A DNA stretch of 39,247 nt from the NCBI GenBank assembly GCA_030524205.1, contig JAUNGZ010000023.1:1-39247 (forward strand), in the 5' to 3' direction. Shown in pieces: positions 25,407 to 27,142 of the stretch. The stretch comes from Eubacteriales bacterium (GTDB taxonomy: Bacteria; Bacillota; Clostridia; Oscillospirales; Butyricicoccaceae). The position numbers and the translations under genes were made by a program. The notes beneath the pieces were generated by a model that was not told where the DNA came from, did not search any database, and worked only from the letters and a program-made list of their open reading frames with translations. Position 1 is the first letter of the stretch; each line of letters starts with the position of its first letter.

Positions 25407-25435
25407 ATTATAGCAAATTGCAGCATACATGAAAA
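25407..25435 (-). promoter_or_regulatory. Promoter of the alcohol dehydrogenase-asparaginase operon
   Basis: On the minus strand TTTTCA (25430-25435), a 17-nt spacer and TATAAT (25407-25412) with TG before it (extended -10). It gives a leader of about 90 nt. Confidence 0.65.
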
Positions 25436-25503
25436 GAGGAAAAATGCTGAAAAGAAAAACTAAATTTAATGCAAAATCACCATAAAAAAACGATAATTTA
25501 CCC

Positions 25504-25532
25504 TTGACGTTGTGCAAAGTTGATGATATTAT
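25504..25532 (+). promoter_or_regulatory. Strong promoter of the large non-coding RNA
   Basis: TTGACG (25504-25509), a 17-nt spacer and TATTAT (25527-25532). TATAAT at 25530-25535 overlaps but would need a 20-nt spacer. The 60 bases before the -35 are very rich in A and T with A-runs, like an UP element, so activity may be high. Start expected near 25540. Confidence 0.75.
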
Positions 25533-26368
25533 AATGGCACAGAAAAGAAAAGGGCAAACACCAAGGACGCAGGACAGGGGTCCTGCGAGAAGGCGCAACC
25601 CGATCCTATTCTGGAAGGGCTGGCAATGAAAGCCAAATGATACCGGAGAAAGGGGTGAGTCCAATGGTATCAGAAGAAACATCCTACCAGTTCGCGGGAC
25701 TCGCCGCGGCGCTGTAACCGAAACGATAAAGGTGATAGCTATAAAAAAGAGCGAGTTCCATATCGAAACAACGAACCGCCTGAAAAGCGCGATCGGCTTC
25801 TGACAAGTAGGAACGGCACCTTTGAGGAAGCTATCCTCGTGAAACGAAAACCGTGCAACATACTGATGCGAAAAAGCGGATCGAGGCAGCAGGAAAGCAA
25901 GGTTCAAGCATGACAGAACCCTGAATGATGCGTTGGCGAATGACTAAGTATCCGTACGATACCTGCCAAATGCCAAAAATAGTGCGCACCCATTGGCCGA
26001 TGGGCATACTGATGAGTATGGTGCCGCAAAAGCGAACCAGAGAAGAACCCCGCGATCATATCAAAGATTCCTGAAAGTGGTTCGGGCAGCGCAGGAACAG
26101 AATCGAACGATCACCCGCCGAGAAGTGACGCATCCAGAAATTGATATAGAGTTCCCGAATGTGACGGTAAACTGTCTTTTGTGGATACAAAGCGTTAAAA
26201 CAAGACAAGCGGCTGCAAGCTTTACCGCAGCCGGACACTTACCAATATGAATCGCAGCCGGGCGGCTCCCGCGGACGTTAGGATAAAGGAAAACAAGCGA
26301 AAAATACGGAAGGATCAATCAAAAATAGACCTTGCAGCAGGAAAAATCCCGCTGAGAAAAGGAATTGT

Positions 26369-26386
26369 ATGAAAATCTGGAAGTAA
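26369..26386 (+). CDS. Possible five-codon micro-ORF at the end of the RNA
   Basis: ATG-AAA-ATC-TGG-AAG-TAA, reading MKIWK, follows AAAAGGA at 6-nt spacing just before the terminator stem. It may be chance, but it is the only start with a proper ribosome site in the RNA. Confidence 0.15.
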   Translation: MKIWK

Positions 26387-26413
26387 AAGGCCTCGTCGGG
26401 TGACGGGGCCTTT
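26386..26413. terminator. Terminator of the large RNA, shared with tepA
   Basis: A 12-bp stem (26386-26397 with 26402-26413, one T-G pair) with a GGGT loop ends in TTT and is followed by GTTGTTG. On the minus strand it also ends in a T-rich run, so it can close the convergent tepA transcript. Confidence 0.85.
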
Positions 26414-26443: not shown

Positions 26444-27142
26444 TTATTTTTCGCCTTCCGTTTGCGGACGTGCCGCGGCAATCATATCATACAGCGCGTC
26501 GAGCGCGTCGGACAGCGTGCCGACAGCATTTATCAGCCCCAGCTCGACGGCCTGTCTGCCGGAGATAACCGTGCCGATATCGGCGGTAAGCTGGCCGGTC
26601 TCGCGCATGAGCTGCTGCAGGCGGCCGGCCGAAATCGCCGAATGCGCCGTGATAAAGTCGACGATCCGCTCTTGAATTTTCGCCAAGTATTCAAACGCCT
26701 GCGGCACGGCGATGATCGTCCCGTTCATGCGCACCGGATGGATCGTCATCGCCGCGGAAGCCGCGATAAAGCTCTTTTTCGCGGCGACCGCCATGGGCAC
26801 GCCGATGGAGTGCCCGCCGCCGAGCACGAGCGACACGGTCGGCTTTTTCATGCCCGCGATCAGCTCCGCGATGGCAAGGCCGGCCTCCACGTCGCCGCCG
26901 ACCGTGTTGAGCAGAATCAGCATGCCGTCGATCTCCTCGGCCTGCTCCACCGCGGTGATCTGCGGGATCAGATGCTCGTATTTTGTGGTTTTGTTCTGCG
27001 AAGGCAGCTCCATGTGGCCCTCGATCTGGCCGACGATCGTAATGCAGTGCACGGTGCCGCGCGAGGTTTTTGCCGTAATCGAGCCGGTTTCCGCGATGCT
27101 GTTTTCTTCTGGCGCCTTAATAGGCTGGGTATCTTCCGCCAT
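26444..27142 (-). CDS. tepA: TepA-type ClpP-like serine protease
   Basis: This 232-residue protein is a ClpP/crotonase-fold protease of the TepA (translocation-enhancing protein) group of Firmicutes. The nucleophile context GGGHSIGVPMAV, the preceding NTVGGDVEAGLAIAELI and AAMTIHPVR with the catalytic-type histidine are visible. TepA proteins have been proposed to degrade signal peptides or aid secretion. ATG 27142 follows GGAGG; upstream in-frame codons lack support. There is no signal peptide or membrane helix. Confidence 0.88.
   Translation of the reverse strand: MAEDTQPIKAPEENSIAETGSITAKTSRGTVHCITIVGQIEGHMELPSQNKTTKYEHLIPQITAVEQAEEIDGMLILLNTVGGDVEAGLAIAELIAGMKKPTVSLVLGGGHSIGVPMAVAAKKSFIAASAAMTIHPVRMNGTIIAVPQAFEYLAKIQERIVDFITAHSAISAGRLQQLMRETGQLTADIGTVISGRQAVELGLINAVGTLSDALDALYDMIAAARPQTEGEK

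Follow-up and report, generated by a model that had tools for sequence, protein, structure and literature searches.

A conserved structured RNA of Butyricicoccaceae and other families with a predicted ribosome-binding hairpin and a short reading frame

The locus and its transcription unit

The window, i.e., the whole stretch of 39,247 nucleotides from a Eubacteriales bacterium of the family Butyricicoccaceae (contig JAUNGZ010000023.1), harbours a putative RNA gene between a divergent Fe-ADH gene and a gene for a ClpP-family protein. The features that define the unit are as follows.

25431..25500, + strand: conserved region upstream of the promoter, seen in the alignment, between the RNA promoter and the divergent Fe-ADH gene
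25504..25532, + strand: promoter TTGACG-17-TATTAT (TTGACG 25504-25509, 17-base spacer, TATTAT 25527-25532), from sequence and conservation
25535..26413, + strand: RNA of about 0.88 kb, its start inferred from the promoter and its end set by the terminator
26163..26320, + strand: variable 3' domain, its length varying among species
26386..26413, + strand: terminator hairpin with T-rich tail, kept in the genus alignment, from sequence and conservation

The predicted promoter and terminator lie where they had been placed at first. Promoter bins (25500-25539) are 82% to 89% identical to the window copy among 24 copies of the genus, and TTGAC...TA-type promoters precede the core of the RNA at 19 of 20 loci in two other families. 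After 26162, the genus copies become variable, and conservation returns in the terminator region. The same terminator is also able to serve the opposite-strand ClpP-like gene, which ends at 26444. Two copies (L014 and L015) have a gap between 5' part and terminator that is several hundred nucleotides longer than in the window copy. Judged from sequence and its conservation, we take this unit of promoter, RNA of about 0.88 kb and terminator as real, with near certainty as regards the conserved RNA.

The conserved region at 25431-25500, lying between divergent promoters, is possibly the site of a regulator. Both here and at the equivalent place in other genera, an inverted-repeat appearance was noticed by eye (GAAA...TTTC, TTTTTTGTACA). 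When a 22-base pattern from this region was searched with up to three mismatches in six genomes, the upstream place was matched in two (G000 and G012), and single matches elsewhere were obtained in G012, G017 and G170. An element common to other promoters was rejected, the other places being only single.

With regard to coding potential, ORFs of at least 80 residues from a mechanical list overlap the stretch. The 85-residue plus-strand frame at 25993-26250 is open over 25993-26160 in 3 of the 24 aligned genus copies, and on the minus strand some frame across 25535-25907 is likewise open in 3 of 24; because of these counts, both were rejected as genes and no long conserved gene is seen. A second small ORF (ATGAGCGAGTT...) was discarded since 11 of the 24 genus copies have its start and the window copy does not. 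The same applies to an ORF at CCGATGGGC, which in the genus of the window has no Shine-Dalgarno (SD) sequence and, by eye, meets an early stop in some copies (L003); in genus g5, its length ranges from 18 to 42 codons.

Occurrence

The element is present in a single copy in its own genome, and its core pattern was found in none of the viral contigs, on which grounds a viral element was rejected. A DNA search of 60 genomes, including its own, gave matches in 26, namely, 24 of the 25 genomes of the genus and two from other genera of the family. In the genus, G013 carries the 3' part alone, where the contig ends, and G024 yielded no copy by the DNA search or by covariance model R1. A pattern scan of named contigs returned 20 matches, all labelled Agathobaculum, Butyricicoccus or Eubacteriales bacterium; the genus of the window is probably Agathobaculum, which NCBI places, like Butyricicoccus, in Butyricicoccaceae. 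One draft genome, G011, has two copies on different contigs (L002 and L027), perhaps from mixed strains.

Covariance models extended this distribution. Under stricter filters, R1 detected the core block in 42 of the 87 family genomes and in 6 of the 15 genera. R2, run on 391 genomes of the class, matched five, i.e., the own genome, a second genome from the family, and three spread over two other families; searches within families matched 15 of 197 genomes in f26 and 6 of 200 in f23, and at the level of the order 38 of 394 genomes had an R3 match, partly the same genomes as in the other searches. Training of the models used subsets of the copies (A5, 20 of the 32 then known; A10, 50 of 66). In all, the SD-hairpin/ORF1 core described below is present in four families, the fourth (f14) being represented by two matches in one genome, with promoters and 16-codon frames, one of which starts from GTG, at scores of only E 4e-4 and 9e-4. 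These two core copies (L151 and L152, in G072) differ from each other.

One R3 match, L150 (G012:C2:889335-889399), was taken as a false positive, corresponding to the start of a long reading frame. In this frame, which belongs to the same genus, the start codon follows the same long SD, GGAAAGGGGTGAGTCCCATGG, and the element may therefore be used by an ordinary gene as well.

The neighbours differ between genera, which argues for a self-contained unit: by Pfam, the left neighbour is Fe-ADH in the window, DUF1292 at L119 and L121, asparaginase at L111 and D-Ala ligase at L109, while downstream a GIY-YIG protein (L046) or an RNase R-type OB domain (L109) is encoded; other neighbours were assigned by eye. 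In families f23 and f26, a 6S RNA gene lies 0.5-1.1 kb upstream on the opposite strand, hence divergently, at 13 of 20 loci (L119-L139), i.e., 6 of 6 in f23 and 7 of 14 in f26; at L119 and L121, the DUF1292 gene is on this side too. The own genome has its 6S gene on another contig.

Known RNA families and literature

None of the Rfam 15 covariance models matched the window at the gathering score, the best match near the RNA having an E-value of 0.62; the models for OLE, ROOL, GOLLD, HEARO and raiA, proposed earlier as a check, were all without a match. Among 26 distinct loci of relatives, Rfam recovered only the 6S genes and one tRNA. Three housekeeping RNAs were discarded as identities of the element, also in a diverged form: 6S RNA (no RF00013 match in the window and a separate 6S gene in 6 of 6 genomes), RNase P RNA (no RF00010 match in the window; found elsewhere in 5 of 6 genomes) and tmRNA (no RF00023 match in the window; over the cut-off elsewhere in 7 of 8 genomes). 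In the own genome (G000, 82% complete), RNase P RNA was not found and tmRNA gave a sub-threshold match only. No earlier description of the RNA was recognised among the literature matches listed, most subscription papers being outside their scope, and the main text of PMC11109978 does not contain the names Agathobaculum, Butyricicoccus or Oscillospir.

Fold and covariation

The fold was derived from an alignment (A1) of 24 copies from 23 genomes, covering 641 nt in the window; a copy at a contig edge (L024) and two records of loci already included (L025 and L026, the same as L043 and L048) were left out. The helices, outside that of the SD hairpin, are listed below.

25569..25586, + strand: 7-bp hairpin, five pairs with double compensatory changes (helix 2)
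25711..25739, + strand: 8-bp helix spanning the ORF1 stop and the bases behind it (helix 5 of the alignment fold)
25787..25887, + strand: 11-bp helix (25787-25799/25874-25887) enclosing a hairpin at 25824-25838 (helices 8 and 10)
25927..26134, + strand: long-range helices (25927-25938/26116-26134) closing a second domain, double changes in 6 of 12 pairs (helices 12 and 13)
25986..26024, + strand: 5-bp helix enclosing tandem hairpins, three pairs with double changes (helices 14-16)
25996-26005, + strand: tandem hairpin 1, GCC-GAUG-GGC, inside the 5-bp helix
26006-26019, + strand: tandem hairpin 2, AUACU-GAUG-AGUAU, compensatory changes in 2 of 5 pairs across three genera
26033..26084, + strand: helices 26033-26039/26078-26084 and 26045-26048/26067-26070, double changes in 8 of 11 pairs (helices 17 and 18)

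RNAalifold predicts 106 pairs, 30 of them with double compensatory changes; 500 shuffles average 10.8 such pairs and slid controls give 7-15, the latter comparison leaning towards the structure, which comes from this very alignment. On the plus strand, the consensus energy amounts to -106.1 kcal/mol, on the minus strand to -77.9 kcal/mol, and the plus-strand fold is far beyond its column-shuffled counterparts (mean -40.8 kcal/mol, sd 4.8, 20 shuffles). Single-sequence folding favours the other strand, with z-scores of -2.87 on the plus and -6.44 on the minus strand. A pairing of GUCCNAUGG with CCGAUGGGC, given by RNAalifold on eight copies, was set aside since these motifs are mutually similar and half-palindromic. 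Taken together with the homologues and the lack of a match in Rfam, the covariation upholds the initial reading of the stretch as an unclassified structured RNA that has a promoter and a terminator of its own.

ORF1 and its Shine-Dalgarno hairpin

The most widely conserved element of the RNA is, as judged from sequence comparison, a hairpin that holds an SD followed by an ORF of 16 to 18 codons. In the window it comprises the following parts.

25647..25662, + strand: extended Shine-Dalgarno AGAAAGGGGTGAGTCC, with near-complete, bulged pairing to the assumed 16S tail (duplex -21.7 kcal/mol)
25652..25707, + strand: stem holding the SD, GGUGAGUCC with GGACUCGCC plus inner pairs (helix 3, 100% paired, 10 of 13 pairs invariant)
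25664..25717, + strand: ORF1, 17 codons, MVSEETSYQFAGLAAAL, stop TAA, from the first-family comparison

A conserved block, GAAAGGGGTGAGTCCAATGG, comprises the SD and start codon of ORF1, and GGUGAGUCC within it pairs with GGACUCGCC inside ORF1. According to the first-pass annotation, no frame of more than five codons followed a ribosome site; this is corrected by the 17 codons of ORF1, which has the strongest SD-like site. A reading of the RNA as noncoding is not fully borne out, in view of the predicted ribosome-binding hairpin with its 16-18-codon ORF and of the ORFs of two or three codons found in relatives from another family and one sister genus.

Among 46 copies from six genera of the family, ORF1 has 16-18 codons in 44 (20 and 25 in the other two) and ends with TAA (32), TGA (12) or TAG (2). 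The distance from the 3' arm of the stem to the stop is 17-22 nt in 44 of 46, with the arm in frame 1, 2 or 0. These counts are not independent, because the search models span ORF1 and the members are related; four copies of genus g9 with the arm in frame 2 came from a tandem-hairpin pattern instead. Glu occupies codon 4 in 41 of 46 copies, and codon 3 is mostly Ser or Thr (TCA, AGT, TCG, ACA, ACG). A test for synonymous changes did not single out the ORF1 frame (34 vs 21.7 expected; next frame, 31 vs 22.1), so protein-level selection on ORF1 is unsupported, and by eye, with the hydrophobic toxins of type I toxin-antitoxin systems in mind, the peptides do not have the look of membrane helices. 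Across genera and families (50 copies), compensatory changes in the stem affect three pairs and 11 cells, compared with a mean of 3.2 cells after shuffling and at most three pairs and four cells in slid controls; within f23 and f26, a gapless stem score was no better than the null.

The strength of the site was estimated by pairing with the 3' tail of 16S rRNA, which we take to be GGAUCACCUCCUUUCU, although the tail of the genomes themselves may differ. The median duplex with this assumed tail is -19.6 kcal/mol for 66 ORF1 sites and -13.6 kcal/mol for 53 secondary modules, two sets that were partly found via SD-like sequence, and it is -4.8 kcal/mol for 1490 other ATGs and -5.8 kcal/mol for 22 hand-picked starts of large ORFs of the window. 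The UCC replacement costs the duplex about 4.3 kcal/mol. Counted without AUG selection, strong sites for the assumed tail reach, per kb, 4.24 in g5 (shuffled 1.52, left flank 0.88), 3.03 in g9 (1.06, 0.88), 2.58 in g10 (1.14, 0.31), 3.14 in f23 and f26 together (1.22, 2.05) and 1.67 in the genus of the window (6 of 24 copies; 1.21, 0.29). A general excess of SD-AUG combinations had p < 0.05 in only 1 of 13 RNAs (L110, 0.04).

Minigene modules in relatives

Some relatives carry further start sites, defined here as modules when an AUG other than that of ORF1 is preceded by an SD-like word and CCN, and as minigenes when the ORF has two or three codons. The f26 match L128, which has no promoter and looks coding, was left out of the counts of modules, duplexes, site densities and stem scores. 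In f26, 14 loci contain 39 modules, of which 31 open ORFs of two or three codons; for other AUGs the count is 36 of 320, and for those with the SD word only, 8 of 64; with one locus per genus, the ratio is 23 of 31 versus 29 of 275 other AUGs. At least one minigene is present in 12 of the 14 loci and at least two in 10, the remaining two having none. The sister genus g10 shows 6 of 11 modules with such ORFs (8 of 132 other AUGs; 0 of 25 with the SD word only), distributed over three of six loci, two of which have two or more, with none in the other three. By comparison, there is no array in f23, because its six loci have only three further modules, two of them of two or three codons, and in five other genera of the family, including that of the window, none of 14 modules is a minigene (40 loci). 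The genus of the window has one SD-AUG module; the window's own RNA has no minigene, its SD-AUG frames being of 17 and 5 codons.

The second codons are varied (MC, MY, MR, MK, MT, MA, MG, MNC and MGR among others). In L134, upstream of the core, the units seem to be tandem duplicates, with MNC/MC pairs repeated, and by eye some RNAs (L121, L122) carry modules lacking the AUG. The motif CCNATGG occurs two to five times in each of 12 relatives' RNAs, against shuffle means of 0.07-0.36 (p <= 0.02 in 11 of 12), and twice in the window's RNA, the latter count standing without a shuffle for comparison.

Proposed mechanism and alternatives

Because some distant relatives carry rows of two- or three-codon ORFs, we propose that the RNA probably works by engaging ribosomes; that it acts through them, as a switch or decoy, has in our estimate an even chance of being right. 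The 30S subunits would bind the SD when exposed or melted, and translation of ORF1 would open the stem and alter the fold behind it. The RNA would thereby report on ribosome supply or on the state of translation, with little role for the peptide itself. Given the strength of the SD and the brevity of the ORFs, the ribosome might stay or restart on the RNA, so that initiation-competent ribosomes or initiator tRNA would be held back, much as polymerase is by 6S RNA, whose counterpart in translation the RNA would then be. The genus of the window lacks the array; there, a large folded body surrounds a single predicted docking site. The narrower proposal of a ribosome trap, in which the docking hairpin and, in some lineages, rows of strong-SD minigenes hold back translation capacity in a 6S-like manner, appears unlikely to us.

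In favour of ribosome engagement we counted the geometry of ORF1, the duplexes with the 16S tail, the two- and three-codon modules, the covariation of the stem, the neighbours and the divergent 6S gene. Against it we counted the genus of the window, with its single SD-AUG module and no minigene, the lack of an array in f23, the high site density in the left flanks of f23 and f26, the synonymous test, which is not specific to ORF1, the gapless stem score at the null level in f23 and f26, and the tandem GAUG hairpins along with the greater part of the folded body, which are left unaccounted for.

An alternative that we consider doubtful, yet worth keeping in mind, is a structural RNA similar to OLE, ROOL or GOLLD, i.e., a scaffold or ribozyme in which GUGAGUCCNAUGG and CCGAUGGG would serve as binding sites and any translation would be incidental. 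Much of the RNA outside ORF1 is folded with covariation in the genus, CCNATGG is enriched in relatives, and the tandem GAUG hairpins find a place here, as do the AUG-less modules, for which a binding motif is the better fit. However, a protein site needs neither a stop after two or three codons nor a constant ORF length, and it requires no changing stop codons and no complementarity to the 16S tail.

The length of the RNA, its one small ORF and many hairpins also recall a dual-function regulator of the RNAIII type, with the ORF1 peptide and base-pairing domains acting separately. A conserved peptide would be in line with Ser or Thr at codon 3 in most copies, encoded by varied codons, and with Glu at codon 4, but the arm shifts frame among copies while the geometry stays constant, and the synonymous test is not frame-specific, making this explanation improbable. 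We judge it more improbable still that the short ORFs are inhibitors like those of lambda bar, which would provoke peptidyl-tRNA drop-off and sequester tRNAs during stress: ORFs of two or three codons with many second codons occur, and the expression of bar is toxic when Pth is deficient (PMC8012679), but no second codon is common to them and the genus of the window has no minigene. Finally, attenuators commonly have a small ORF whose SD is covered by a stem, but a cis-acting leader or attenuator of a neighbouring gene is very improbable, given that the next gene in the window is on the opposite strand, that neighbours vary between genera, and that terminator-like hairpins follow in the copies inspected by eye.

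Significance

The RNA adds a large structured class, without a match to Rfam at the gathering score, to gut bacteria of the Agathobaculum-Butyricicoccus group, which are butyrate producers. If the ribosome-engaging reading is true, this bacterial RNA would influence the ribosome pool by way of minimal reading frames, a mode of action for which we are aware of no precedent, and its adjacency to 6S RNA in other families would turn paired decoys of polymerase and ribosome into a directly testable idea.

Comparison with known systems

The RNA resembles OLE, ROOL and GOLLD in its length of hundreds of nucleotides, its elaborate conserved fold and its own transcription unit, and differs from them in that its core is a predicted ribosome-binding hairpin with a mini-ORF, accompanied in some relatives by ORFs of two or three codons. 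RNAIII-type dual-function RNAs are also long RNAs with one small ORF, as here, whereas in the present case the length of the ORF and its place relative to the stem are conserved, and not the whole peptide. Lambda bar minigenes consist of an initiation site, one or two further codons and a stop, an arrangement shared by the f26 and g10 relatives; unlike bar, these have varied second codons, several can be present per RNA, the chromosomal RNA also carries a hairpin ORF, and the window copy has none of them. With 6S RNA (RF00013), the proposed logic of holding back a core machine would be common, but the gene and family are separate. Extended Shine-Dalgarno start sites of S. aureus, described for mRNAs and leader ORFs in PMC13009471, share the long SD-anti-SD pairing near the start codon and the small ORFs, whereas here they would belong to a free-standing structured RNA.
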